Shown: positions 19,351-43,553 of the stretch, one piece after another | Layout of the letters: each line of letters opens with the position of its first letter | Numbering within the stretch: position 1 is the first letter of the stretch | Source: Rhodocyclus purpureus | GTDB taxonomy: Bacteria > Pseudomonadota > Gammaproteobacteria > Burkholderiales > Rhodocyclaceae | NCBI RefSeq assembly: GCF_016653115.1 | Contig: NZ_NHRX01000018.1 | Coordinates: forward strand, 1-64,000 | Direction: 5' to 3' | Length of the DNA: 64,000 nucleotides | Made by a program: the position numbers and the translations under genes | The notes under the pieces: generated by a model | The model's input: only the letters and a program-made list of their open reading frames with translations | Database searches by the model: none | What the model was told of the DNA's origin: nothing

Positions 19351-21951
19351 ATGCTTAAGGCGACACAGGCTTTTGGGAAGCTCAGGTTTGACGATCGGGG
19401 GAGGATCACGGAGTGGCATTCCCTGGTCGACCATATGACCGATGTAGCAGCGTGCTTCGCCAGCTTGGCTGGCTGTCGCGCCATTCGGCGTGCGATGGAA
19501 AGAAGCGCGAGACGGGAGCTCGACAAGCAAGATATTGCGCGCTTGTCCGTTCTCGCCTTCCTGCATGATGTCGGCAAAGCCAACAGCGGTTTCCAGGCCA
19601 AGCGCTGGCAAGGGAAAGTAGCGGACGACTGGCCGGTGAACAAGGCAGGACATGGAATCGAGGCGTTCGCTCTGTTTGAAGTGCAGGCAAGCGCCGATGC
19701 CATTCAGCCGCTCGTCGAGCAAATTTGTTCTTGGGGTGACGCCTGCGACTCATTGTTGATCGCCAGCATCAGCCATCATGGACGACCCTTGAAGGCTTCT
19801 CCGCAGGGCAGTTCGGCAATATGGCAGTCTCGAACTGGCAAGTACGACCCGGCTGCCGTATTGAAGGAGATTGCCGAGTCTGCCCTCACCAACTATCCCA
19901 AGGCATTCGAGTCGGGTGGTCGTGAGTTGCCAAGTTCGCAGCCCTTCGGTCATCTTTTCGCTGGACTGGTTCAACTCGCCGACTGGTTGGGCTCGGATGA
20001 CCGATTTTTCGAATATTCGAAGCCGGGGGAGAACAGAGCCGCAACAGCGCCGCTGCTGGCTGCCAAGGCGATCACCGCGCTTGGGCTGGATACTGAAGAT
20101 TGGCGAGACAAGCTGATCGCCATGGCGCCCACATTTGCCGATGTGTTCGGTGGATACGATCCGAGGCCGATCCAGGCTGCCATGGACGATGATGACTTGG
20201 GGCCTTTGCTCATTCTGGAGTCGGAAACCGGCAGCGGGAAAACCGAGGCCGCGCTTTGGCGCTACCTGCATCTGTTCCGGGCAGGATTGGTCGATAGCCT
20301 CTACTTCGCCTTGCCGACGCGGGTAGCGGCCACGCAGATCTATCGACGGGTGCAAGACACCTTGAAACAGTTGTGGCCCGACAACCCGCCCCTCGCCCTG
20401 CGTGCGCTACCCGGCTATGCTGCTGCGGATGGTGAAGAAGCCAAGGCCTTGCCCGATTTCAAGGTGCAGTGGAGCGACAACCCGGATGAGCAGAAGGCGC
20501 ATCAACGCTGGGCTGCCGAGAACTCCAAACGCTTCCTGGCAGCACCCGTAGCCGTTGGCACAGTCGATCAAGCGCTGCTGGGCGCGTTGCAGGTTCGCCA
20601 TGCACACCTGCGTCATGCCACGCTGGCCCGCAGTCTGTTGGTGGTGGACGAGGTGCACGCTTCCGACGCCTACATGACCGTCTTGCTCGAACGCTTACTC
20701 ACAGCGCATCTCAACTGTGGTGGCCATGCCTTACTGCTATCGGCCACTCTCGGGTCGGTCGCGCGCGATCGTTACCTGTCCTTGACACCGAAAAGTCGCT
20801 CATCTTTGTCTGAGGCCATGCCTTTCCACGTTGCCTGCCAAGTGCCCTATCCGTCACTTGCGGATAGCCGGGGCATTCGCGCGATGGAGAGGACAGGCCT
20901 GTCAAAGTCTGTACGTTGGAGCGCCGAAGACATCATCGATGATCCCGAAAGCGTCGCTCGTCTTGCGATCGATGCGGCGGCGCACGGCGCAAAGGTGCTG
21001 ATCGTGCGTAATACGGTACCTGCGGCCGTCGCCACCCTTTCGGCCCTGGAAACGCTGGTGCCGGATTGTTCATGGCTGTTCAACATCGACGGCGTCGCAA
21101 CCCTGCATCACAGTCGCTTCAGCCGTCAGGATCGTCCCGAACTGGATGCTGCCATAGAAAAACGACTTGGCAAAGGCAGGGCAGGGGGGCCCTTGATTGT
21201 CGTCGGCACTCAGACATTGGAGCAAAGTCTGGACATCGACGCCGATTTCCTAATCACCGATCTGTGCCCGATGGACGTGCTGCTACAACGCATCGGCCGC
21301 CTCCATCGCCATGCGAACAAACGTCCGGAGTCGTACGGCAATGCCAGAGCGATCGTACTGACTCCGAGCGGAGATGACCTGACGCCTCTGTTGGCGCAGC
21401 CACGCAACGGCTTGGGACGTTTTCGGAACGGCGGCGGGGTCTATGACAACCTGTGTATTGTCGAAGCCACGCGCAGATTGCTCCTCGAAAAACCCGAAGT
21501 CGTCATCCCGGAAGACAACCGCTATCTGGTGGAGGCAGCAATGCATCCAAGCAAGCTCGACGCATTGCAGGAAGAACTCGGGGACGCGTGGAAGGAACTG
21601 GCTGTGAAGTTGGAAGGCGATATCGGAGCTGAAAAGACGCTCGGGCGTCTCCATGCCTTGGATGTGGAGCAGGTATTCGGCAAGGAGGGATTCCCCGAGG
21701 GTGAGAAACTGGCAACCCGCCTGGGAGCACAAGACTGGTTGGTGAAGTTTCCTGATGATCTATACGGTCCCTTCGGCCTTCCACTCAAGGAATTGCCAAT
21801 TCGCCATCACCTCTTGCCGAAGGACTTACCCCTTGATGCTAGCCCTTTTTGCATCACGCAAAACGACGGATGCACCACGTTCCATCTCGGTGAAGGCGTG
21901 TTTCGCTACAGCCGCCTTGGCCTCGAACGTATTACCAATCAAATTGATTAG
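19351..21951 (+). CDS. cas3: CRISPR-associated helicase/nuclease Cas3 (type I-E)
   Basis: 866 residues. Cas3 is recruited to Cascade-bound target DNA, which it nicks and degrades. An N-terminal HD nuclease domain (about 15-240) has H23 in EWHSLVDHMTD and the H72-D73 pair in LHDVGKAN. The SF2 helicase follows with Walker A ETGSGKTEA (about residue 291), Walker B VVDEVHA, motif III LLLSATLGS and motif VI QRIGRLHRH. Length and domain order are normal and all key residues are present. First gene of the cas operon; promoter not firmly identified. 14-bp palindrome GCATATGAATATGC at 19271-19284 lies upstream. Confidence 0.97.
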   Translation: MLKATQAFGKLRFDDRGRITEWHSLVDHMTDVAACFASLAGCRAIRRAMERSARRELDKQDIARLSVLAFLHDVGKANSGFQAKRWQGKVADDWPVNKAGHGIEAFALFEVQASADAIQPLVEQICSWGDACDSLLIASISHHGRPLKASPQGSSAIWQSRTGKYDPAAVLKEIAESALTNYPKAFESGGRELPSSQPFGHLFAGLVQLADWLGSDDRFFEYSKPGENRAATAPLLAAKAITALGLDTEDWRDKLIAMAPTFADVFGGYDPRPIQAAMDDDDLGPLLILESETGSGKTEAALWRYLHLFRAGLVDSLYFALPTRVAATQIYRRVQDTLKQLWPDNPPLALRALPGYAAADGEEAKALPDFKVQWSDNPDEQKAHQRWAAENSKRFLAAPVAVGTVDQALLGALQVRHAHLRHATLARSLLVVDEVHASDAYMTVLLERLLTAHLNCGGHALLLSATLGSVARDRYLSLTPKSRSSLSEAMPFHVACQVPYPSLADSRGIRAMERTGLSKSVRWSAEDIIDDPESVARLAIDAAAHGAKVLIVRNTVPAAVATLSALETLVPDCSWLFNIDGVATLHHSRFSRQDRPELDAAIEKRLGKGRAGGPLIVVGTQTLEQSLDIDADFLITDLCPMDVLLQRIGRLHRHANKRPESYGNARAIVLTPSGDDLTPLLAQPRNGLGRFRNGGGVYDNLCIVEATRRLLLEKPEVVIPEDNRYLVEAAMHPSKLDALQEELGDAWKELAVKLEGDIGAEKTLGRLHALDVEQVFGKEGFPEGEKLATRLGAQDWLVKFPDDLYGPFGLPLKELPIRHHLLPKDLPLDASPFCITQNDGCTTFHLGEGVFRYSRLGLERITNQID

Positions 21952-22005
21952 CATTATTGAGTGGCTCGCCTGGCAAGCTACCAGGCTCGTTCCCGGAGAT
22001 TCGCC

Positions 22006-23607
22006 GTGACATTGCGCTACAACCTGCTTGAGGAATCACTTATCCGAACCCGCCTGGTGGCTGGCGGTCAGCCCCAGGCGTTCAGCTTGCCCGGTCTGTT
22101 GGTTGCTCTGGGACAGGACGCCGTGCGCGACTTTCCGGCGCTGCGCCCTCATCAGCGCCACCCGTGGCACGCTTTCCTGGTGCAGCTCGCTGCCATCGCC
22201 CTCCACCGTGCAGGAAGAAGCGAGCCCTTCGACAACGAAGCTGCGTGGAAAAACGCACTGCTCGACCTTACCCCTGAGGATCCTGACGGGGCGGCATGGT
22301 GCCTGATTACTCCGCACGACCGGCCGGCCTTCATGCAGGCCCCTGTGCCTGGCGGAAGCCTTGAGGACTGGTCAGATGATCGCCCGACACCTGATAGCCT
22401 CGATATCTTAGTAACGTCCAAGAACCACGATTTGAAGTTAGGGCGTATAAGAAGCGCGGGTAAAGATGATTGGATATTCAGTCTGGTAAGTCTTCAGACC
22501 CAGGCCCCTTTCCCTGGTTCTGGGAATTATGGTGTTTCCCGAATGAATGGTGGTTCTTCCAGTCGCCCAGGATTAGGTATTGATCCAGGCGGAGATATTG
22601 GTAAAAGGTGGCGGAGAGATGTTGGCGTTTCCCTGGATTGTCGTGCGAATATCCTGGCGGAAATTGATTTCAAGGATAAATTTGGGGTGGCGCTACTCTG
22701 GGTTTTGCCTTGGGATGGAGAAAACGGTTTGTCATTTTCTCAGCTTGAACCGTACTATGTCGAGATTTGTCGAAGGGTGCGGCTAGTAGAGAAGAGCAGT
22801 AGAATTTTCGCCTTGCGAACTACAACTAAAGGGCCTCGTGTGGCGAAGGATGAAGCAAAAAGTCGCAAGGGAAATACAGGGGATATTTGGACGCCAGTTC
22901 ATGCTGTGGAAGGTAAGTCCCTAGGGGTTTCGAGCCGTGGCTTCGACTACGAACGCATGGCGATGCTCGCGTTTGGTTCCGAGTACAGGAAGTCTCCTGC
23001 ACAAATCGTTAATCGCACAGATGACGGTGAACGATTGGAGCTTGTTGCCCAAGCCATTGCGGGAGGACAAAGTACAACCGATGGTTATCATGAACGACGA
23101 ATAGTTATATCGCCAAGTGCTCGCAAACTAATTCTTGGTAAGCAGACGAATCGTCTAGCGAAATTGTCCGAAGAGCGTGTGTACGCGGTAGCGCAGATTG
23201 CGTACCTACTCAAGAACTCAATTCTTACACTACTGGATGGTGGGAAGAGAAGAGACAACCCAAGGGATATTCCGGATAGCCTAAGCAAGAAGGCAGTGAA
23301 GTTGGCTACTGCCTTTGAACAGCGAGAAGACGCGAGGTTCTTCGACGCACTCAACGATGAAATAGAATCCGATAAGCCAGAAGAAGTACGGATGCAGTGG
23401 CTGCTGTCGATGGCTGACAGCGCCGAAGCCATTTTGAAGAAGGCGTTTACCGCCGGGCCGCAATGCGGCGAGCAGCGTTACCGAGCTCAGGCTGCTGCAC
23501 TGTCTCGATTCCACGGCGGTTTGCGAAGCCCCAAGACGCTTCCAGACCTGGCCGACCATCTTCGCCAACAATCCATCAACAAGGAACTTTCGCATGATCA
23601 GCAATGA
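22006..23607 (+). CDS. casA: Cascade large subunit CasA (Cse1/Cas8e)
   Basis: 533 residues from a GTG start, chosen because CGGAG lies 8 bases upstream and VTLRYNLLEESLIRTR matches the usual N-terminus. CasA recognises the PAM and recruits Cas3. The N-terminal two thirds is the Cse1 fold (LVALGQD, WHAFLVQLAAIALHR) and the C-terminal helical bundle is at about 380-520. The middle of the gene (about 22380-23330) is visibly richer in A and T than its ends and than the adjacent cas genes, suggesting a recombinant segment. casB starts inside the 3' end (14-bp overlap). Confidence 0.92.
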   Translation: MTLRYNLLEESLIRTRLVAGGQPQAFSLPGLLVALGQDAVRDFPALRPHQRHPWHAFLVQLAAIALHRAGRSEPFDNEAAWKNALLDLTPEDPDGAAWCLITPHDRPAFMQAPVPGGSLEDWSDDRPTPDSLDILVTSKNHDLKLGRIRSAGKDDWIFSLVSLQTQAPFPGSGNYGVSRMNGGSSSRPGLGIDPGGDIGKRWRRDVGVSLDCRANILAEIDFKDKFGVALLWVLPWDGENGLSFSQLEPYYVEICRRVRLVEKSSRIFALRTTTKGPRVAKDEAKSRKGNTGDIWTPVHAVEGKSLGVSSRGFDYERMAMLAFGSEYRKSPAQIVNRTDDGERLELVAQAIAGGQSTTDGYHERRIVISPSARKLILGKQTNRLAKLSEERVYAVAQIAYLLKNSILTLLDGGKRRDNPRDIPDSLSKKAVKLATAFEQREDARFFDALNDEIESDKPEEVRMQWLLSMADSAEAILKKAFTAGPQCGEQRYRAQAAALSRFHGGLRSPKTLPDLADHLRQQSINKELSHDQQ

Positions 23608-24172
23608 TGCCGACACCGAGGGCCAAGCGGACGAACGAATTGCGTCCAGGCAGGAAAGCCCGATTTCCCGATTGGCACGCATCATTACTCAGGCCTCGCG
23701 GTTCGAAGGAGATGCCCATGGCTTGGACAACGGTGAGCGGGCAGCCTTGGCCCGGCTTGATCCAGATGCCGAATTGCGCCCTCATCAAATTGCCGCCTTG
23801 TCCCGTGCATTGGTTTACGCCGATCTTTCGCCCGAGAACTGGCTGCCGGAGACTTGGCAGCGTTGGGCGCTGATCGCCCACGGCATGGCCCTGGCCGGGC
23901 ATGACTCCAGCCGGCGACTGGGGCAGCAACTGAGCGATGCCGGAGTTTCCGAGTCGCGGGTGACGAAATTGCTGACATCCCGCGGCGATGCCTTCCGCCA
24001 ACTGGTTCCCCGTGTTCTACGACTGTTGGCCAGCAAGGCGCAAGCCCCCAACTGGTACGAAATGGGCGACTTGATCATCCACCAGGAACGTAACGAAGAG
24101 GCTGCGGAAGCCGCACGCCTGAAAATCGCAAGCAGCTTTTTCTCAGCCGAAGCAAAGAAACCCAAACACTAA
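23594..24172 (+). CDS. casB: Cascade small subunit CasB (Cse2)
   Basis: 192 residues. Cse2 forms a dimer along the belly of Cascade and helps hold the target strand. The helical segments QRWALIAHGMALAGH and SESRVTKLLTSRGDAFRQLVPRVLRLLASK are typical of the family. Its position between casA and casC is diagnostic. It overlaps casA by 14 bp, implying coupled translation. Confidence 0.92.
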   Translation: MISNDADTEGQADERIASRQESPISRLARIITQASRFEGDAHGLDNGERAALARLDPDAELRPHQIAALSRALVYADLSPENWLPETWQRWALIAHGMALAGHDSSRRLGQQLSDAGVSESRVTKLLTSRGDAFRQLVPRVLRLLASKAQAPNWYEMGDLIIHQERNEEAAEAARLKIASSFFSAEAKKPKH

Positions 24173-24193
24173 TCCAATGACCGGAGCTTGATC

Positions 24194-25390
24194 ATGCCTA
24201 TCCCGCGCTTTATCCAGATTCACACCCTGCACACGTATCCGGCCGCCTTGTTGAATCGCGATGACGCAGGCCTCGCCAAGCGCCTGCCTTTGGGCAACGC
24301 CGTTCGCACCCGCATTTCTTCCCAATGCCTGAAGCGACATTGGCGCGTTACTGAAGATCAGTTTTCGTTGTCCAAGCTCGATGTTCCGATGGCCATCCGG
24401 TCTCGTGGCACCCTGGAACTGATCAGCAAGCGGATTCAGGATGAGGGCATTTCGGAATCGTTGGCGCAGGCAGCAGCCGAAGCTCTTCGGGATGCCGGCT
24501 TGCTCGACAAGGGCGGGAAGGACAAGAAAGGCGAGGACGCACTGAAGACCGGGCAGGCTGTTTTGCTGGGCAAGCCTGAAATCGATTACCTGGTCAAGCG
24601 CTGTGTCGACCTGGCATCCGCTGAAACAGACGTTAAGACTCTCAAGACTGCGATAGCCCAAGCACTGAAGGACGAAAAGAAGAACATCGAAGCCTTGAAA
24701 CACGGCAGTGGATTGGAATCCGCCCTGTTTGGGCGCATGGTGACTTCTGACGTGTTGGCCAGCCGCGAGGCTGCCGTTTACGTCGCCCACGCTTTCACGG
24801 TGCACCAAGCCCAGGTAGAAAACGACTATTTCACGGTTGTCGACGATCTCTTGCAGGATGCAGGAGAGCTTGGTTCCGCCGGCATCTTCGACACTGAACT
24901 CGCCTCTGGTCTGTACTATGGCTACGTGGTGATCGACGTTCCGCAACTGATCCAGAACCTTGAAGGTATCGATTTCAAGGATTGCTTTGCTCCCGACACC
25001 CCTGCCGAACGTCGCGCTCTCGCCGGCCGCGTTGTCCAGCACCTGCTGCATCTGATTGCCACCGTCAGCCCCGGTGCCAAGCGTGGTTCCACTGCGCCCT
25101 TCGATTGGGCGAAGTTCGTATTGGTGGAAGCCGGTGACTGGCAGCCGCGCAGCTTGGCCGGAGCGTTCCACAATGCCTTGCCTCTCGATGACAAGAGCGG
25201 CAACAGTATCCGTTTGCGGACTGTGGAACGGCTGAGCCAGGAAATCGCTGCCATGGACGCTGCCTATGGCGCCCCCTTGTCCCGTCGGTTTCTTGCGCTC
25301 GATCCGGTCACTGTTCCCGGAGCCGAGCGCTTGAATCTTGGCCAACTGGCAGATTGGGCCAAAGAAATCATTGAGCAAGGGGCTTGCTGA
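24194..25390 (+). CDS. casC: Cascade backbone subunit CasC (Cas7e/Cse4)
   Basis: 398 residues from MPIPRFIQIHTLHTYPAALL. Six copies form the backbone that coats the crRNA spacer. The N-terminal LNRDDAGLAKRLPLGNAVRTRISSQCLKRHWR is the conserved Cas7e RNA-binding region. It also has YVVIDVPQLIQNL and the C-terminal SRRFLALDP. The start was chosen for the CGGAG ribosome site 7 bases upstream; a TTG two codons earlier is less likely. casD starts one base after the stop. Confidence 0.96.
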   Translation: MPIPRFIQIHTLHTYPAALLNRDDAGLAKRLPLGNAVRTRISSQCLKRHWRVTEDQFSLSKLDVPMAIRSRGTLELISKRIQDEGISESLAQAAAEALRDAGLLDKGGKDKKGEDALKTGQAVLLGKPEIDYLVKRCVDLASAETDVKTLKTAIAQALKDEKKNIEALKHGSGLESALFGRMVTSDVLASREAAVYVAHAFTVHQAQVENDYFTVVDDLLQDAGELGSAGIFDTELASGLYYGYVVIDVPQLIQNLEGIDFKDCFAPDTPAERRALAGRVVQHLLHLIATVSPGAKRGSTAPFDWAKFVLVEAGDWQPRSLAGAFHNALPLDDKSGNSIRLRTVERLSQEIAAMDAAYGAPLSRRFLALDPVTVPGAERLNLGQLADWAKEIIEQGAC

Positions 25391-25391
25391 C

Positions 25392-26126
25392 ATGCCTCGT
25401 CATCTATTGCTGCGACTGGAAGCGCCCCTGATTGCTTTCGGCGGCGAGACCATCGACAACTATGGCGTAATCCGCGACTTTCCCGCCCTGTCCATGCTCA
25501 CCGGCATGTTTGCCAACGCCTTGGGTTATCGGCGGGAAGATAGCGAATTGCATGATCGCTTGCAGGCACGATTGGTGGCGGGTGCGAGGTTGGATAGCGA
25601 GGTGCAACGCATGCGGGACTATCAGACGGCCCAGCTCTTTGAAAGCGATCAAGGCTGGACTACGTCGGGAGAACCTGAAGGGCGGGCAAAAAGTCCAAGT
25701 TACACGACGCAGCCCGACGGTAGACGGTCGCTGACTTGGCAGCGCTACCGCGACTATCACGCCAGCCTGAATGTGCTGGTTGCCTTGCGCCTTGAACCTG
25801 CAGACGAGTCGCCTTCCCTTGATGATCTGGCCCAAGCCATTGATCATCCTGCCCGCCCGCTGTTCATCGGCCGCAAGAACTGCCTCCCCAGTCGACGGCT
25901 AATCGCTGGCTGGCAGCATGCGGAGAACGTTCTTGACGCCCTGCGGACGGCGCAGTTGCCTGAGGGGGCAGGTCGCTTGCGCATGCAATGGCCGGAGGGC
26001 GAAGGCGTTCTGGCGGGAGACAGGCTTCTGGACTTGTGCGATGAGCGAAATTGGAGCAGCGGCGTCCACGGAGGTTGGCGCCCGGTTCGCGAAGGTAGTT
26101 TCTATCCTGCAGGAGCAAGCGCATGA
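25392..26126 (+). CDS. casD: Cascade subunit CasD (Cas5e)
   Basis: 244 residues from MPRHLLLRLEAPLIAFGGET. Cas5e binds the 5' handle of the crRNA and connects it to CasA. The N-terminus LLLRLEAPLIAFGG and DFPALSMLTGMFANALGY are conserved family segments, as is the later RPLFIGRKNCLPSRRL. It overlaps casE by four bases (ATGA). Confidence 0.95.
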   Translation: MPRHLLLRLEAPLIAFGGETIDNYGVIRDFPALSMLTGMFANALGYRREDSELHDRLQARLVAGARLDSEVQRMRDYQTAQLFESDQGWTTSGEPEGRAKSPSYTTQPDGRRSLTWQRYRDYHASLNVLVALRLEPADESPSLDDLAQAIDHPARPLFIGRKNCLPSRRLIAGWQHAENVLDALRTAQLPEGAGRLRMQWPEGEGVLAGDRLLDLCDERNWSSGVHGGWRPVREGSFYPAGASA

Positions 26127-26860
26127 ATTTTCAACTCTTGCGCCTGGAGCCCGACAGCAAAGCCCTTGCCTACTGGGCTAGCCGCAACGGAGGGCTGTCG
26201 CGGGACGGCGATCACGGCTATGCGCTGCACGCCCTGTTCTGCATCGCCTTTGGCAATCTGGCCCCCAAGCCTTTTCGCTACTTCGGTGGGCGTCAAGGCC
26301 TCCTGGCCTACAGTTCCGTGGAGTTGGACGAACTGCGGTTGAGCGCCAGTCTGGCTCCCCCCGATGTTGCGCGAGCCTTGGGATTGGACACGCTGGATGC
26401 CAGAGCCTTTCCTACGGTCTGGAAAACGGGCCAATGCCTTGGGTTCGAGGTGCGAATTCGGCCGATAGTGCGCTGTAAAGATGGCAGAGAGCAGGATGCC
26501 TTCTTGCATGCGGTGGGTGAAGCAGGCTGTCCTGAAAAAGCCTCCGAACACGGCACCATTTCACGGCGACATGCTGTCTACTCGGAATGGCTGACGAAGC
26601 AATTCGCCGTTGATGGGGCAGCTTCACTGATCGAAGCGCGCATGGATTCCTTCAGTCTCACCCGTGTCTTGCGCAAAGGCGGTATGCGCGAAAACGGCAG
26701 GCGAAAGACCAGCAATACAGCGGGGCCGGATGTCGTTTTCAAGGGGCAATTGGAGGTCGGCGACCCGGATGCGTTCCAGCGCTTGCTTGCGCGCGGGGTA
26801 GGGCGGCACCGCGCCTTTGGTTTTGGCATGTTGCTACTGCGGCCGGCCGGAGCATGCTGA
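26123..26860 (+). CDS. casE: crRNA endonuclease CasE (Cas6e/Cse3)
   Basis: 245 residues. Cas6e cuts the repeat hairpin 8 bases from its 3' end and stays bound to the crRNA 3' stem. A candidate catalytic histidine is H36 in HGYALHALF, at the position of H20 in E. coli. The glycine-rich C-terminal loop GVGRHRAFGFGMLLLRP is intact. The repeat in the adjacent array has the matching stem GTTTCCCCGCGCCAGCGGGG and an ATAGGCCC handle. It overlaps casD by four bases and cas1 by seven bases. Confidence 0.95.
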   Translation: MNFQLLRLEPDSKALAYWASRNGGLSRDGDHGYALHALFCIAFGNLAPKPFRYFGGRQGLLAYSSVELDELRLSASLAPPDVARALGLDTLDARAFPTVWKTGQCLGFEVRIRPIVRCKDGREQDAFLHAVGEAGCPEKASEHGTISRRHAVYSEWLTKQFAVDGAASLIEARMDSFSLTRVLRKGGMRENGRRKTSNTAGPDVVFKGQLEVGDPDAFQRLLARGVGRHRAFGFGMLLLRPAGAC

Positions 26861-27747
26861 AAGGGCGGCTCGGACTGGAGACAGCCCGTGTTCCTCATGC
26901 TGACCGGCATGGCTTGATCTGGCTGGAACGCGGCGAGCTTTGTGTAATCGACGGGTGCCTGCATTTCATGGCGGGCAAGGGTTCGTTGACGCCGCACGTC
27001 CTGCAAGTGCCGCATCAGGCTGTTTCCATGATCCTGCTGGGACCCGGCAGCAGCGTGACCCATGATGCCTTACGCCTTCTTGCGCGGCATGGAACCCTGA
27101 TGGCAGCGGTGGGGCAGGATGGCGTTCGAACCTACACCGCGCCGCCATTGTTGCCGGATCGTTCCGACGTTGCTCGGCGTCAGGCCGAGTTGTGGGGAAG
27201 TCCACGCCGACGGATCAGTGTTGCACGACACATGTACGCACTCCGTCTGGGAGAAATCCTTCCCCACCGCGACCTTGACACGCTGCGAGGCATTGAGGGC
27301 TCACGTGTCAAGGCGATGTACCGGTTGATGGCAGACAAGTACGACATTCCGTGGGAAGGCAGACACTACGACCGGGACAAGCCAGAGTCGTCGGATGTCC
27401 CAAATCAAGCGATCAACCACGCGGCAACGGCAGTGCAGGGTGCGGCGGCGATTGCCGTACAGTCGTTGGCAGCGATCCCACAGCTTGGGTTCATCCACGA
27501 GGATTCTGGTCAGGCGTTTGTGCTCGACATTGCCGACCTCTTTCGCGACACCATCACTCTCCAAATTGCCTTCGCGGCAGCAAAGAAATCCATCAATGGC
27601 GACGAAACCAGCATTGATCGGCTGGTCAGGCGTGAAGCATCCACCGTGTTTCGGAAGCAGGATGTGATCGCCACGATGATCGACAAGATCAAACTGGTGC
27701 TGAGGACAGAGGAGAGCGATGGCGCTAGTAGTGATAGTGACGCGTGA
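26854..27747 (+). CDS. cas1: Cas1e integrase
   Basis: 297 residues. With Cas2 it inserts new spacers at the leader end. The metal ligands of the family are visible: E148 in GIEGSRV, H215 in LGFIHEDSG and D228 in VLDIADLF. Length is close to E. coli Cas1 (305). All key residues are present, so adaptation should be functional. It overlaps casE by 7 bp and cas2 by 29 bp. Confidence 0.97.
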   Translation: MLKGRLGLETARVPHADRHGLIWLERGELCVIDGCLHFMAGKGSLTPHVLQVPHQAVSMILLGPGSSVTHDALRLLARHGTLMAAVGQDGVRTYTAPPLLPDRSDVARRQAELWGSPRRRISVARHMYALRLGEILPHRDLDTLRGIEGSRVKAMYRLMADKYDIPWEGRHYDRDKPESSDVPNQAINHAATAVQGAAAIAVQSLAAIPQLGFIHEDSGQAFVLDIADLFRDTITLQIAFAAAKKSINGDETSIDRLVRREASTVFRKQDVIATMIDKIKLVLRTEESDGASSDSDA

Positions 27748-28015
27748 CGTGACCTACAGATACCGGGGCTTCCTCGCTTCGGTAATGCTTGAGGTTACGC
27801 CGACCGTCTACATCTCGCCGCGAATGAATCCAGGTGTCAGAGCACGGGTCTGGGAAACCGTTTCCGATTGGTATTCTGCCGAGCCGAAGGGCAGTTTGGT
27901 GATGGTCTGGCGAGATTTGAACCAGACTGGCGGGGTCGGTATCGAGACGCTCGGGGAGCCTCCCCGAGAACTCGTCGAGGTCGATGGCCTTTGGCTCGTT
28001 AAACGGATGTTATAA
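27719..28015 (+). CDS. cas2: Cas2e
   Basis: 98 residues from MALVVIVTRDVTYRYRGFLA. It is the structural dimer of the Cas1-Cas2 integrase. The Cas2e pattern LVVIVTRDV, YRGFLASVMLEVTPTVYIS, GSLVMVWRDLNQTGG and the C-terminal ELVEVDGLWLVKR matches family members of 94-100 residues. The leader begins right after the stop. Confidence 0.96.
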   Translation: MALVVIVTRDVTYRYRGFLASVMLEVTPTVYISPRMNPGVRARVWETVSDWYSAEPKGSLVMVWRDLNQTGGVGIETLGEPPRELVEVDGLWLVKRML

Positions 28016-28082
28016 AATGCTCTTTAAAAATTCGTATGACTTTAACGTTTTTCCTTTGTAGATCATATGGCTATCTACAAGA
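28016..28082 (+). promoter_or_regulatory. CRISPR leader
   Basis: A 67-bp AT-rich stretch between cas2 and the first repeat, unlike its GC-rich surroundings. It ends in an inverted repeat TTGTAGAT-N9-ATCTACAA (28056-28080) whose right arm stops two bases before the first repeat. The leader lies on the side where repeat 8-nt handles (ATAGGCCC) and the near-perfect repeats indicate transcription towards higher coordinates. I see no clear IHF site. Confidence 0.75.
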
Positions 28083-31000
28083 GGTTTCCCCGCGCCAGCG
28101 GGGATAGGCCCTATCTTGTCGAGCGCGTCAAGGCCATGGGCGGGGTTTCCCCGCGCCAGCGGGGATAGGCCCCATGCGGGCATAGCCGTCGCGGTCAGGT
28201 AGCGGGTTTCCCCGCGCCAGCGGGGATAGGCCCGACGCCGGGGATTTCTTCACCCGCCTCAACGAGGTTTCCCCGCGCCAGCGGGGATAGGCCCGTGACC
28301 CAGGCCGCAAGCCGCGACGTGCTCGCGGTTTCCCCGCGCCAGCGGGGATAGGCCCCAATCAAGCACGGCCTGCGCGTCAGCCATACTGGTTTCCCCGCGC
28401 CAGCGGGGATAGGCCCGGCCCGCACAGTGACGCGATGACCCCGCGCATGGTTTCCCCGCGCCAGCGGGGATAGGCCCGAGCTGTGGCCGTTGATGGGCTA
28501 CGCGCTGAAGGTTTCCCCGCGCCAGCGGGGATAGGCCCGTCATCAAAGGCATTTTCGACGCCTGCAATGAGGTTTCCCCGCGCCAGCGGGGATAGGCCCC
28601 GCTTCCAGACCTCGTCCGAGTCCAGCACCGGGGTTTCCCCGCGCCAGCGGGGATAGGCCCGTGGTACGGGAAATCTCCGGACTCCAGCGGGTGGTTTCCC
28701 CGCGCCAGCGGGGATAGGCCCCGACCTGACTGCACTCGGCGAGGCCAGAGACCGGTTTCCCCGCGCCAGCGGGGATAGGCCCGCTGCCGGCGCGCGTCAA
28801 GGTCGCCGGCGTCGGGTTTCCCCGCGCCAGCGGGGATAGGCCCTCGCCACCAATCTCCGCGTCGACGGCGCCGAAGGTTTCCCCGCGCCAGCGGGGATAG
28901 GCCCGCTGCCATGTTACGAGCGTGAGCCCGAGCGCAGGTTTCCCCGCGCCAGCGGGGATAGGCCCCCCTGCCGCGCGCTTGCAGCAGCGCCCGCTCCGGT
29001 TTCCCCGCGCCAGCGGGGATAGGCCCTACATCAAGGAAGGCGACACCTTCACCGCCACGGTTTCCCCGCGCCAGCGGGGATAGGCCCCATGCCGATACGC
29101 CCGTCCATGACCGCCTGTTGGTTTCCCCGCGCCAGCGGGGATAGGCCCTGGGGCAAGGACTGGCTGCCGCACGACGCCAAGGTTTCCCCGCGCCAGCGGG
29201 GATAGGCCCCGCCAGATAGCGTAGCGCGTCGGCGCCGTGTGGGTTTCCCCGCGCCAGCGGGGATAGGCCCCGACGTTACGAAACGTCCGGGAAATGATCG
29301 GTGGTTTCCCCGCGCCAGCGGGGATAGGCCCGTCACCGCCAACCCCCTGAGCAGACGAAGCTAGGTTTCCCCGCGCCAGCGGGGATAGGCCCTTGCCTCG
29401 TCTCGTCCCAGGTCGAAGCGAGGAGGTTTCCCCGCGCCAGCGGGGATAGGCCCTCGGAATCTACCGTCTCAGCGGTCGCATTCTCGGTTTCCCCGCGCCA
29501 GCGGGGATAGGCCCTTCGCCGCGCTTCAGGAGGCAGCATGATCGACGGTTTCCCCGCGCCAGCGGGGATAGGCCCAGCAGCTTCTCGGGCAGTTCGATGT
29601 TCATCGTGGTTTCCCCGCGCCAGCGGGGATAGGCCCCGACCGCGGCGTGAGGATCGCTGCGGAAAAAAGGTTTCCCCGCGCCAGCGGGGATAGGCCCTTC
29701 TTGGTCGTCGGCACGCGCGGCAGCACGGCGGTTTCCCCGCGCCAGCGGGGATAGGCCAGTACCTGCGTCGGTCGATCTCGACTTCCATGAGGTTTCCCCG
29801 CGCCAGCGGGGATAGGCCCATGACCGCCGCGACGGTCAAGCAAGACGGCCTGGTTTCCCCGCGCCAGCGGGGATAGGCCCCGCGCAGCAGCGCATCGGTC
29901 AGGCTGCGATTGGGTTTCCCCGCGCCAGCGGGGATAGGCCCGCGTTCGTGACCTCCGCCAGCCCGAACGGCGTGGTTTCCCCGCGCCAGCGGGGATAGGC
30001 CCCGACTCACTGCCGACCCAGAGGGCAATGCCCAGGTTTCCCCGCGCCAGCGGGGATAGGCCCGTGCCACCGCACAGCTTGAGCAGCTCGGCAAGGGTTT
30101 CCCCGCGCCAGCGGGGATAGGCCCCAACCTGCTAGGAGTCTGATCCATGAAGCTCCGGTTTCCCCGCGCCAGCGGGGATAGGCCCCGTGCACACGTCTGC
30201 ACAAACAACGGAGTAAGGGTTTCCCCGCGCCAGCGGGGATAGGCCCCTCGACCGCCTGTCGACCCTGTCCTCGTCGGTGGTTTCCCCGCGCCAGCGGGGA
30301 TAGGCCCTTGGCGCGCTCCGCCGGGTCTTCTTCCTTGCGGGTTTCCCCGCGCCAGCGGGGATAGGCCCCAGATCCTCAGCTTCTTCGCCGGCTTCGGCGA
30401 GGTTTCCCCGCGCCAGCGGGGATAGGCCCTGGTGCGCGTCGCGCAGGCAGAGCAGGAACCCGGTTTCCCCGCGCCAGCGGGGATAGGCCCAGCTGGGGCG
30501 ACGCGCTCGGATTCGACGAGGCGGTTTCCCCGCGCCAGCGGGGATAGGCCCTTATGGGGCGCGTACTGCGACGACGCGGTCCTGGTTTCCCCGCGCCAGC
30601 GGGGATAGGCCCCTCGGATTCGCTCCCCGCGCTGTGGGTTACTGGGTTTCCCCGCGCCAGCGGGGATAGGCCCCGCAAAGACCTCGAAGCAAATGCCGTT
30701 CAAGAGGTTTCCCCGCGCCAGCGGGGATAGGCCCGCCGAGACTGGCGCCGAAAGCACCGAACGTGCGGTTTCCCCGCGCCAGCGGGGATAGGCCCGTTAC
30801 CGCGTCCATCGTCATCGACTCCTCGCCGGTTTCCCCGCGCCAGCGGGGATAGGCCCCATGGCAACCCTCCCCTCCGGCACCATCCTTTGGTTTCCCCGCG
30901 CCAGCGGGGATAGGCCCTGTGCGACGAGTTGCCGGCCGCCGCCGCCGAGGGTTTCCCCGCGCCAGCGGGGATAGGCCCGGGCCGGCGTTTGACGCCGGCC

Positions 31001-32198
31001 TTTTTATGGTGGTTTCCCCGCGCCAGCGGGGATAGGCCCCGCCAGGGCGCCCCCGAGGGGCCGTTCCGCGCGGTTTCCCCGCGCCAGCGGGGATAGGCCG
31101 CAATGGGTGCAAAGGGCGGGCCGGCTGTCGAAGGTTTCCCCGCGCCAGCGGGGATAGGCCCGATTGGGCCGAGCTTCGGAAGCTCGGCTATCCGGTTTCC
31201 CCGCGCCAGCGGGGATAGGCCCCGACGACAGCGAACCGCCGCCTATCTGCGCCCGGTTTCCCCGCGCCAGCGGGGATAGGCCCTCGGGCCAGGTGATCCC
31301 GATCGGCGCCGATGCGGTTTCCCCGCGCCAGCGGGGATAGGCCCGCTGCCCGATCAATCCTTTTTGGAGTCTCTCAGGTTTCCCCGCGCCAGCGGGGATA
31401 GGCCTTGCCCGAATGCGCCCCGGCGGCGCTTCGCGGCGGTTTCCCCGCGCCAGCGGGGATAGGCCCGCAAGGGGCGCGAGTTCGGCGCGTTCGTGAACGG
31501 TTTCCCCGCGCCAGCGGGGATAGGCCCCAGGTCGGCGCACGAGCAGCGTTACGGTAGAAGGTTTCCCCGCGCCAGCGGGGATAGGCCCAACACCGCCGCC
31601 TATGTCGCCTCTGTCGCTGCGGTTTCCCCGCGCCAGCGGGGATAGGCCCCAAGAACGGGGTGGTACGAATTGCTTCCGGCGGGTTTCCCCGCGCCAGCGG
31701 GGATAGGCCCGGTGAATGGCGAGCCGTCGAACGCCGTCATCAGGTTTCCCCGCGCCAGCGGGGATAGGCCCCTGCGGCTCAAGCTCACCAGCCGCCGCCG
31801 CATGGTTTCCCCGCGCCAGCGGGGATAGGCCCGGCGCCGGAAACAGGCGCAGTGCCACGGATAGGGTTTCCCCGCGCCAGCGGGGATAGGCCGTCGGCCA
31901 TTTCGGCCAAATCCTCGTCCGAAATGGTTTCCCCGCGCCAGCGGGGATAGGCCCGGGCGGGCGCCCGGCTTGGTTCCGGTAAAGCCGGTTTCCCCGCGTC
32001 AGCGGGGATAGGCCCTACCAGCTCCCGGACGGCTCGGTGCAGTGCTGGGTTTCCCCGCGCCAGCGGGGATAGGCCCTGCAGCATCTCGGTACCGAGACTG
32101 GCCGGGGTGGTTTCCCCGCGCCAGCGGGGATAGGCCCTGCTCTTCGGTCACTCGCGCATACCACGGCCGGGTTTCCCCGCGCCAGCGGGGACTTTCGG
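28083..32198 (+). CRISPR. Type I-E CRISPR array, 68 repeats and 67 spacers
   Basis: 29-bp repeats (GGTTTCCCCGCGCC then AGCGGGGATAGGCCC) alternate with 32-bp spacers at an exact 61-bp period; 67 periods account for the distance from the first repeat (28083) to the last (32170). The palindromic stem and ATAGGCCC end fit Cas6e processing on the plus strand. Repeats are identical except for their last base in repeats 28 (A), 50 (G), 55 (T) and 63 (G), an internal C-to-T in repeat 65 (31999), and repeat 68, which loses its last 8 bases. I noticed no duplicated spacers. The large size and clean leader end indicate recent activity. Confidence 0.98.
30979..31010 (+). terminator. Spacer 48: a complete intrinsic terminator inside the CRISPR array
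   Basis: The spacer contains GGCCGGCGT (30980-30988), loop TTG, ACGCCGGCC (30992-31000) and then TTTTTAT. The 9-bp perfect GC stem followed by a T run reads in the direction of array transcription. It was presumably captured from the terminator of a phage or plasmid operon. If functional it would reduce transcription of spacers 49-67. Confidence 0.7.
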
Positions 32199-41627: not shown

Positions 41628-43469
41628 ATGGCAGCAACAATGACGATGGGTTCGCCGCTAACGAGCGACGCCGCCCGTGAAGCAAAACAGTGGAAGACGG
41701 TCCTGTGGGTCGCCTCGCTTTCGCTGTTCGGCTTGATCTTCGACGGTTACGATCTCGTGGTCTACGGCGCTTGCGTGTCGACCTTCCTGCGTGATCCGAC
41801 CCAACTCGGCGAGGTGACGCCGGCCATCGCCGGCGCGCTCGGCAGTTACGCGCTGTTCGGCGTTCTCGTCGGTGCGTTGCTCGCCGGCAGTGTCGGCGAC
41901 ATCCTCGGCCGGCGCAAGGTCATGCTCACTGCCTACGCCTGGTTCGCCGCCGGCATGGCGATCACGGCGATGACCGAGACGACGACGGCCTTCGGCATCA
42001 TGCGCTTCATCACCGGCCTCGGTGTCGGCGCCTTGGTGGCGACAACTGGTGCGCTGGTCTCCGAGTATGCGCCGAAGGGCAAGAAAAACCTGCTCAACGC
42101 GGTCGTCTACTCGGGGATCATGATCGGTAGCCTGATGGCCGCCCTGCTGGCGATCCTGCTGCTCACGGACATCGGCTGGCGCGGACTGTTCATGATCGGT
42201 GCGCTGCCGCTGGTCACGCTGCTGCCGCTGGCCTACTTCAAGATGCCCGAGTCCGTGTCCTGGCTGGCCGCACGCGGTCGCATGGAGGAGGCACGCCGGG
42301 TTGCCGAGCAGACCGGTTTCGACATTCCCGAGATCGTCCCCGTCGACAAGGCGAAGGAAACTGCCGAAGACAAGGCCGGTTTCGTGGGACTGTTCAAGTC
42401 CTATCCGCTGGCGACCCTGCTGCTTGGCATGATGAGCGCGCTCGGTCTGATGCTGGTCTACTCGCTCAACACCTGGCTGCCCGAACTGATGATGCGTGCC
42501 GGTTTCAACGCCAAGGGATCGCTGTCCTTCCTGATGGTGCTCAACGGCGGTGCGATCATCGGTGCACTGTCGGCGTCGAAGTTCGCCGACCGCTTCGGAG
42601 CCAAGATGGTCGTCGCTGCCTGCTTCGCCATCGGCGCGCTGTCGATCGCGGCGCTGACGCTGAGCCTGCCGCTGGCGGCGCTGCTGGCCATCGTCGCCGT
42701 CGTCGGTCTCGGCACCAGTGGCACGCAGGTGCTGATCTACGGCCTCGTCGCCAACTACTACCGCACCAACGTTCGCGGTGCGGGTGTCGCCTGGTGTGCC
42801 GGCTTCGGTCGCATCGGCGGCGTCGTCGGCCCGATCCTCGGCGGTTTCCTGGCGGGCGGCGGTTTTGCCCTCGAAACCATCTTCTACATCCTCGCTGCCA
42901 TCGCAGTGATCGGTGTGGTGATCACGCTGCTGGTCCCTGCCTCGAAGACGATGGAAGTGAAGACGACGCTGATCGAGCCCGCGCGCCCGGTCGCAGCCGG
43001 AGCCCCCGCGATGTACCGGCGCATCCTGGTCGCACTCGACGCGACGCAGTCCGAGAGCCGCGAGTCGACGCTGCAGCGGATCGAACAGTTCGGCCTGATG
43101 AGCAAGAGCCGGGTGAACGTCCTCTTCGTGCAGCACGGGCACGTCGTCCCCGGGAGCATCATCGCCGGCGCCTCGCTCGGCGTTCCCACCGCCGATGAGG
43201 ACGTCGAAGGCATCGACCGCAGCCTCGTTCAGAACGTCGTCGATCGGCTGGCCGCAGCCGGCGTCGATGCGCACGGCGAACTGGTGAGCGCGACCGAGCA
43301 CGACGTTGCCGACGTGGTCCTGGCGCGGGCGCAGAGCGACGATGTCGACCTGCTGATCCTCGAACACGAATTCCTCGGCAGCCATGGCTTGCGTGCCAGC
43401 GTCGCCGAGCAGGTGATCCGTCATCACCCGAACGTGTCGATCCTGCTCGCCCGGCCGGCGGCGGCTTGA
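41628..43469 (+). CDS. MFS aromatic acid transporter fused to a universal stress protein domain
   Basis: 613 residues. Residues 1 to about 440 form a 12-helix MFS permease of the aromatic acid:H+ symporter type, with the DGYDLVVYG motif in helix 1, GDILGRRKVM in loop 2-3 and a long central loop. Residues 462-613 (from MYRRILVALD) form a UspA-like nucleotide-binding domain ending SVAEQVIRHHPNVSILLARP; its G-rich ATP loop is shortened. AAHS permeases normally end near 450 residues, so this is a fusion. A good GGAGGAG ribosome site precedes the ATG. It probably imports the substrate degraded by the upstream hydrolase pathway. Confidence 0.9.
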   Translation: MAATMTMGSPLTSDAAREAKQWKTVLWVASLSLFGLIFDGYDLVVYGACVSTFLRDPTQLGEVTPAIAGALGSYALFGVLVGALLAGSVGDILGRRKVMLTAYAWFAAGMAITAMTETTTAFGIMRFITGLGVGALVATTGALVSEYAPKGKKNLLNAVVYSGIMIGSLMAALLAILLLTDIGWRGLFMIGALPLVTLLPLAYFKMPESVSWLAARGRMEEARRVAEQTGFDIPEIVPVDKAKETAEDKAGFVGLFKSYPLATLLLGMMSALGLMLVYSLNTWLPELMMRAGFNAKGSLSFLMVLNGGAIIGALSASKFADRFGAKMVVAACFAIGALSIAALTLSLPLAALLAIVAVVGLGTSGTQVLIYGLVANYYRTNVRGAGVAWCAGFGRIGGVVGPILGGFLAGGGFALETIFYILAAIAVIGVVITLLVPASKTMEVKTTLIEPARPVAAGAPAMYRRILVALDATQSESRESTLQRIEQFGLMSKSRVNVLFVQHGHVVPGSIIAGASLGVPTADEDVEGIDRSLVQNVVDRLAAAGVDAHGELVSATEHDVADVVLARAQSDDVDLLILEHEFLGSHGLRASVAEQVIRHHPNVSILLARPAAA

Positions 43470-43521: not shown

Positions 43522-43553
43522 GGCAAGGCGTGTTCAGCGCCTTGCCTTTTTTT
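43522..43553 (+). terminator. Terminator of the MFS-Usp transporter gene
   Basis: GGCAAGGCG, 7-base loop, CGCCTTGCC, then seven T. It lies about 50 bp after the stop. Confidence 0.92.

Follow-up and report, generated by a model that had tools for sequence, protein, structure and literature searches.

boxA elements are reportedly found ahead of clustered regularly interspaced short palindromic repeats (CRISPR) arrays of type I-E, in work by Stringer et al. (2020, eLife 9:e58182). Here we describe an array that resembles these in having a leader with a boxA, and that departs from them in the kind of termination at issue, which is Rho termination as papers citing that work describe it and an intrinsic terminator borne by a spacer in our case. 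The array lies in a 64,000-nt stretch of Rhodocyclus purpureus DNA (contig NZ_NHRX01000018.1, positions 1-64,000, forward strand; hereafter the window) and is of type I-E. As far as its letters tell, the forty-eighth spacer from the leader (spacer 48) contains every element of an intrinsic terminator, reading in the sense direction, and its on-paper strength matches that of the best terminator-like sites in the window. We propose, with a probability of about 0.55, that spacer 48 is a chance-captured terminator acting as a leaky attenuator, with boxA-dependent read-through setting the expression of spacers 49-67.

Spacer 48 resembles intrinsic (Rho-independent) terminators in its GC-rich 9-bp stem, its short loop, its immediate T-tract and a score typical of strong sites in the window, and is unlike them in being part of a CRISPR spacer, in sitting midway along a transcription unit, and in being a prediction from sequence. 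For Escherichia coli, a type I-E repeat hairpin followed by eight T gave robust termination in vitro and was functional in cells, and the same study predicted counter-selection of A/T-rich spacers since downstream CRISPR RNAs (crRNAs) would drop (PMC4499155); the general risk of spacer-borne termination is thus already foreseen in print. There, as here, a hairpin and T-tract stand in a type I-E crRNA transcript, and there they stop transcription; that terminator was engineered on the repeat hairpin, whereas spacer 48 is natural and mid-array. In type II-C systems, upstream Rho-independent terminators also shape crRNA output, yet they lie outside the array, belong to a different CRISPR type and are described as useful insulation (PMC12080349). 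A limited literature search, over sources available in part, returned no report of a natural spacer that forms a sense terminator.

Spacer 48 is a complete predicted intrinsic terminator

The features on which the argument turns are:

28083-32198, + strand: CRISPR array (68 repeats, of which the last is degenerate, and 67 spacers)
30979-31010, + strand: spacer 48 from the leader, GGGCCGGCGTTTGACGCCGGCCTTTTTATGGT
30980-31000, + strand: terminator hairpin of nine perfect GC-rich base pairs with loop TTG, -17.8 kcal/mol
31001-31007, + strand: T-tract TTTTTAT, directly 3´ of the stem on the transcribed strand
31040-32169, + strand: spacers 49-67, the 19 older spacers potentially affected

The first-pass annotation had read spacer 48 as a perfect 9-bp stem, a 3-base loop and TTTTTAT, oriented the way the pre-crRNA is transcribed, and had placed 19 older spacers beyond it. 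This anatomy holds to the base; the cas (CRISPR-associated) genes, the leader and the array all share the + strand; and spacers 49-67 of the 67 do lie past the hairpin. The repeats are 29 nt long and the spacers 32 nt (67 of 67), and repeats 48 and 49, which flank spacer 48, are both identical to the consensus. The arms of the hairpin occupy 30980-30988 (GGCCGGCGT) and 30992-31000 (ACGCCGGCC), with the loop at 30989-30991, and an additional outer G-T pair could extend the stem to 10 bp. Folding of six stretches of transcript, 57-362 nt long, gave the hairpin pairs a mean probability of 0.92-0.98, with 0.76 for the weakest single pair.

We graded strength by a terminator score, d, of the d'Aubenton-Carafa type. 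Spacer 48 reached a d of 55 in the sense direction and -6.8 in the antisense direction, and none of 4,020 dinucleotide-shuffled spacers from the same array attained the former value (maximum 37.6). Eight sites in the window have a d above 20, and spacer 48 ranks third among them; a comparable site, at 43522, lies 53 nt downstream of the end of a 613-aa frame at 43469. The motif GCCGGCC in spacer 47, complementary to the 5´ arm, was considered as an upstream antiterminator and rejected, the terminator hairpin being dominant in seven folded contexts. As a guide, spacer 48 has the most stable fold of all 67 (-19.5 kcal/mol, against a mean of -8.0 and a standard deviation of 4.0), and its crRNA is probably a poor one given this hairpin.

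Terminator-like spacers are about as frequent as in phage DNA

How often such spacers arise was gauged in I-E arrays near Cas1e genes, for which 52 of 58 distinct places outside the R. purpureus genome were fetched long, together with three more and with named contigs. The 304 array detections on both strands came down to 142 after a choice of orientation and to 112 non-redundant arrays with 4,469 spacers, orientation being assigned by comparison with two consensus repeats of type I-E, the second of them read from the data. Counts cover spacers of 28-40 nt, and loci with no detected array, such as that of a close relative (L118), contribute nothing.

No other spacer in this collection has a terminator score as high as that of spacer 48. 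At d of at least 0, there were 13 sense and 10 antisense terminator-like spacers (0.29% and 0.22%), a sense share of 0.57 with a 95% interval of 0.34-0.77; the counts were 7 and 7 at d of at least 10, 2 and 3 at 20, and 2 and 0 at 40. Looser thresholds gave more sense than antisense cases, 73 versus 41 at d of at least -20, and 56 versus 38 when repeat letters in the tail were masked; the surplus arises in part because the repeat starts with T, and there is still no depletion. We thus saw no selection against sense terminators among the 4,469 spacers, a comparison of low power. Nor was there a strand bias in T-runs, five consecutive T being present in 128 of these spacers and five consecutive A in 121, so that the survey does not support the strand-specific form of the expectation raised for A/T-rich spacers (PMC4499155). 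The other strong sense terminator, with a d of 44, comes from an array of Tepidimonas thermarum (L174), in which spacer 32 of the 43 has CCCGCCGAGGCGGG followed by TTTTTT.

As a null we took 32-mers from 80 BPP-1-like viral contigs (1.27 Mb, GC content 0.605), a single phage group sampled as overlapping 32-mers, and scored 29,158 that were flanked by AAC and 120,000 random ones of 293,341. The share with d of at least 0 was 0.31% for the AAC-flanked and 0.24% for the random 32-mers, close to the spacer rates. At d of at least 20 the phage shares were 0.113% and 0.059%, against 0.045% (sense) and 0.067% (antisense) for spacers, and a d of at least 55 was reached by 1 of the 29,158 AAC-flanked 32-mers, none of the 120,000 random ones and 1 of the 4,469 spacers. 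Since spacer rates are about those of phage DNA, chance capture from invader DNA suffices to explain the frequency of such spacers. With near-equal sense and antisense counts close to the phage rate, there is no hint that adaptation picked out this spacer.

Just one more of the surveyed spacers has a perfect 9-bp stem, namely spacer 51 of the same array (31162-31193), three spacers past spacer 48; it has no T-tract, and an exact 25-mer of its hairpin had no match in IMG/VR. Shuffled sets contain 0-2 perfect 9-bp stems, so that the oddity is how close spacers 48 and 51 lie. Perfect stems of at least 6, 7 and 8 bp numbered 178, 58 and 15 in spacers and 115-136, 23-40 and 0-6 in five shuffled sets, a surplus that is expected when hairpin-bearing natural DNA gets sampled.

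The leader carries a predicted boxA

Upstream of the array, one element bears directly on whether polymerases would pass spacer 48:

28018-28029, + strand: boxA-like leader element TGCTCTTTAAAA, some 64 nt upstream of repeat 1

In the window this sequence is unique when at most one mismatch is allowed (0.17 expected; present in 15 of 100 shuffles). Across the 109 of the 112 arrays with 160 nt of leader available, the strict motif G[CT]TCTTTA[AGT] occurs in 37 leaders and is absent in 72. Among the controls, two of the 78 trailers and seven of the 2,180 shuffles contain it, and none of the 109 leaders does so on its reverse strand. Its position is -63 to -65 in 17 of the 37 motif-bearing leaders, that of the window included, with a second group at -43/-44. 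The leader of the T. thermarum array has a boxA-like GTTCCTTAAAAA, one letter from the strict motif. Sense terminators occurred at similar rates whether an array had the strict motif (6 of 1,837 spacers) or lacked it (7 of 2,598).

The ribosomal RNA (rRNA) operons of the lineage offer a direct comparison, as GTTCTTTAAAAA, GCTCTTTAAAAA or GTTCTTTAACAA lies upstream of the 16S gene in eight of nine loci, from four of five genomes of the genus or family; the ninth locus ends at a contig edge 82 nt before the gene. The 16S rRNA of the R. purpureus genome itself is absent from its 69-contig assembly. That genome encodes nusB and two genes of the inositol-monophosphatase family, one of which is possibly suhB. 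Exact TGYTCTTTAANAA occurs there in the leader and at four other sites, and a reversed control pattern once; the four other sites were rejected as rRNA evidence, as all fall within one insertion-sequence family. This family, with an rve integrase and TGCTCTTTAAAAA near one end, is present in four copies. For the leader element, above-chance occurrence of the motif, its recurrent position and its presence in rRNA leaders of the lineage indicate a boxA of the rRNA-operon kind. A sigma-70-like match at 27991-28018 would place an RNA start within the boxA, so that a boxA-bearing transcript would have to originate further upstream, for example in the cas operon.

In vitro, the intrinsic terminator lambda tR' was less effective in the presence of the full Nus/SuhB complex, which is of the rRNA type and assembles with boxA; the effect was shown at this one terminator (PMC6614801). 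In Legionella, boxA relieved polarity for most tested targets of long synthetic dCas9 arrays (PMC7862264), and citing papers including this one, as far as available, attribute the CRISPR boxA effect to protection from Rho. Since rRNA-type complexes lower intrinsic termination in vitro, the predicted silencing by spacer 48 may be partly or wholly relieved.

The older spacers show no sign of long disuse

A search for sigma-70-like promoters inside the array that could restart transcription found none (0.4 expected). Changes in the repeats outside the last base, by which prolonged neglect might be visible, affect 1 of the 19 repeats behind spacer 48 and 0 of the 48 ahead of it, and in arrays of at least 30 repeats the share of changed repeats over the last three tenths is 3.0, 3.2 and 8.4%. 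Decay behind spacer 48 faster than this age baseline is not visible, in a test that is weak, and such decay would be slow; the single changed repeat fits the general rise toward the trailer and thus gives no sign of long disuse.

Young spacers match phages, and spacer 48 most likely came from a mobile element

With up to three mismatches, the sole match to spacer 48 in its own genome, and in 199 genomes of the family with its own included, was the spacer itself. Exact 29-, 21- and 24-mers had no match in IMG/VR, nor an exact 31-mer in genome_contigs (one genome per species, 84,980 species), and blastn against phage and plasmid records gave best E values of 0.7-0.9 and no protospacer. Several plasmid matches from that search, with no listed gene, were set aside as look-alike terminators. 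The whole array had no match to plasmid records; among phages, it gave a match for spacer 4, described below, and a weak one for spacer 7 (MT838239.1, 90.9% over 33 nt, E 0.1).

Three of the youngest spacers are better placed. Spacers 1, 3 and 4 (28112-28326) match BPP-1-like (Rauchvirus-related) viral contigs, a sign of recent contact with phages of this group, and their best contig matches, at 31, 32 and 31 of 32 positions, are each preceded by AAC. Spacer 4 also matches the DNA polymerase of Bordetella phage BPP-1 at 29 of 32 positions, again after AAC. Across all matched contigs AAC precedes 3 of 10 matches for spacer 1, 2 of 3 for spacer 3 and 12 of 12 for spacer 4, the lower-identity matches being preceded by GCG, AGC, GAC or TCC. 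As protospacer-adjacent motif (PAM), AAC at the leader-proximal flank of the protospacers in these best matches agrees with the orientation of the array and is consistent with C as the last base of the repeat; internal repeats 28, 50, 55 and 63 end in another base and may reflect other PAMs. To judge from these matches, the array is a real, working phage memory.

The cas operon, the leader end and a second array

Two further features complete the locus:

19351-28015, + strand: type I-E cas operon of cas3, cse1/cas8e, cse2, cas7, cas5, cas6e, cas1 and cas2 (NCBIfam, Pfam)
28055-28081, + strand: leader-end inverted repeat TTTGTAGAT/ATCTACAAG, one base 5´ of repeat 1

The I-E cas gene set next to the leader is complete, with cse1 below its cut-off. 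NCBIfam cut-offs were passed by the models for cas7, cas5, cas6e, cas1e, cas2e, the cas3 core and the cas3 HD domain; cse1 scored 54.2 bits against a cut-off of 70.05, with a match spanning model positions 1-502 of 504, and Cse2 was assigned through Pfam PF09485. The leader-end inverted repeat was examined in an alignment of 17 leaders picked for showing it, which biases the sample for covariation. Its 10-pair stem covaries there, with two-sided changes in 28 cells against a shuffled mean of 10.1 and 88.8% of cells paired against 70.6% in the best slid register; the covariation is weakened in that five pairs have changed on both sides, a count that 72 of 500 shuffles also reach. The repeat may have a role in leader recognition during adaptation, or in the pre-crRNA. 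The genome also has another type I-E cas1, on contig C32, with its own array (L061) of 80 repeats of another type, GCGTTCCCCGCACCCGCGGGGATGAACCG, and the leader of that array has no strict boxA match.

Discussion

In the model that we favor, spacer 48 was acquired like any type I-E spacer, and its 32 nt include a whole intrinsic terminator by chance. Its insertion orientation would have been dictated by the PAM, in this case giving the sense direction. CRISPR arrays are long, untranslated and full of foreign DNA, and they would thus take up stop signals occasionally; the most likely source, we infer, is an operon end from a phage or another mobile element. Transcription from the leader would reach the terminator after 47 spacers, where some polymerases would halt at 31001-31007 and the remainder would continue, aided by a boxA/Nus complex loaded at the leader, such that crRNAs 49-67 would be produced at a lowered, non-zero level. 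The idea of a self-inflicted polarity, put forward in the first-pass annotation, is a reasonable one that requires no special adaptation: a strong predicted sense terminator and the lack of a restart promoter in the array speak for it, while the leader boxA, which may relieve it, and, in a weak test, the absence of faster repeat decay do not.

Several points qualify this model or weigh against it. The boxA may cancel the effect of the terminator. The T-tract is moderate, with just five uninterrupted T before an A, and d was calculated from a formula that is uncalibrated for R. purpureus. A plain pattern scan gave 3 terminator-like sites in the array where 3.8 were expected and 20 in the region where 18.2 were expected, and with no such excess it is the individual quality of the spacer 48 site that stands out. 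At d of at least 20, about 5.1 (AAC-flanked rate) or 2.6 (random rate) spacers were expected per orientation and 2 sense and 3 antisense were found, figures compatible with slight counter-selection of strong terminators regardless of orientation. Finally, the protospacer that the first-pass annotation had proposed to seek at phage or plasmid operon ends was not found in the phage, plasmid, viral and genome records searched.

The effect of the terminator could also be nil, if a boxA-loaded antitermination complex, or Cas6e or other proteins on nascent hairpins, let polymerase through and all 67 spacers are equally expressed. We regard this as a real, if tentative, possibility. The window leader has its boxA in the same place as 16 others and shares the motif with rRNA leaders of the family, a boxA-like element is likewise present in the leader of the T. 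thermarum array, which holds the other strong sense terminator, and sense terminators are not depleted among the surveyed spacers; the in vitro suppression at lambda tR' (PMC6614801) and the relief of polarity in Legionella (PMC7862264) point the same way. However, citing papers, as far as available, tie the CRISPR boxA effect to protection from Rho, in vitro relief of intrinsic termination was demonstrated for one terminator, and the rate of sense terminators is similar with and without a strict boxA. The opposite outcome, near-complete polarity with spacers 49-67 as effectively dead memory, would fit a strength on par with the best terminator-like sites of the window and the lack of an internal promoter, but we consider it unlikely, given the leader boxA and, in a weak test, repeats that have decayed no faster behind spacer 48.

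Two accounts concern why the spacer is there, and we give little credence to either. The terminator might have been retained by selection, confining expression to the 47 youngest spacers and sparing dilution of Cascade; the dilution cost of old spacers has been modelled (PMC5749868) and spacer 48 is the strongest terminator of the 4,469, yet the frequency of such spacers matches the sampling of phage DNA, strong terminators show no sense excess and the case is single, which makes this very improbable. Just as improbable is a self-targeting copy of an operon-end terminator of the host or a neighbor: a hairpin with a T-tract is typical of operon ends, but in the family genomes the spacer matched nothing except itself, although a gap in the 69-contig assembly could hide the source. 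Improbable as well, and frankly speculative, is the thought that terminator spacers act as an acquired control of array length. In that scheme, adaptation would now and then add an intrinsic terminator that separates young spacers, which are expressed, from an archive that is muted, and the boxA/Nus complex would govern the extent to which the archive is read, reopening it when antitermination is strong.

On the model of a leaky, chance-captured attenuator, the R. purpureus array would be a natural test case for whether the rRNA-type antitermination of CRISPR arrays handles intrinsic terminators besides Rho. The survey supplies a background rate for terminator-like spacers, 0.2-0.3% per orientation at a permissive threshold, and the locus bears on the extent to which the trailer half of long arrays may serve as live memory.

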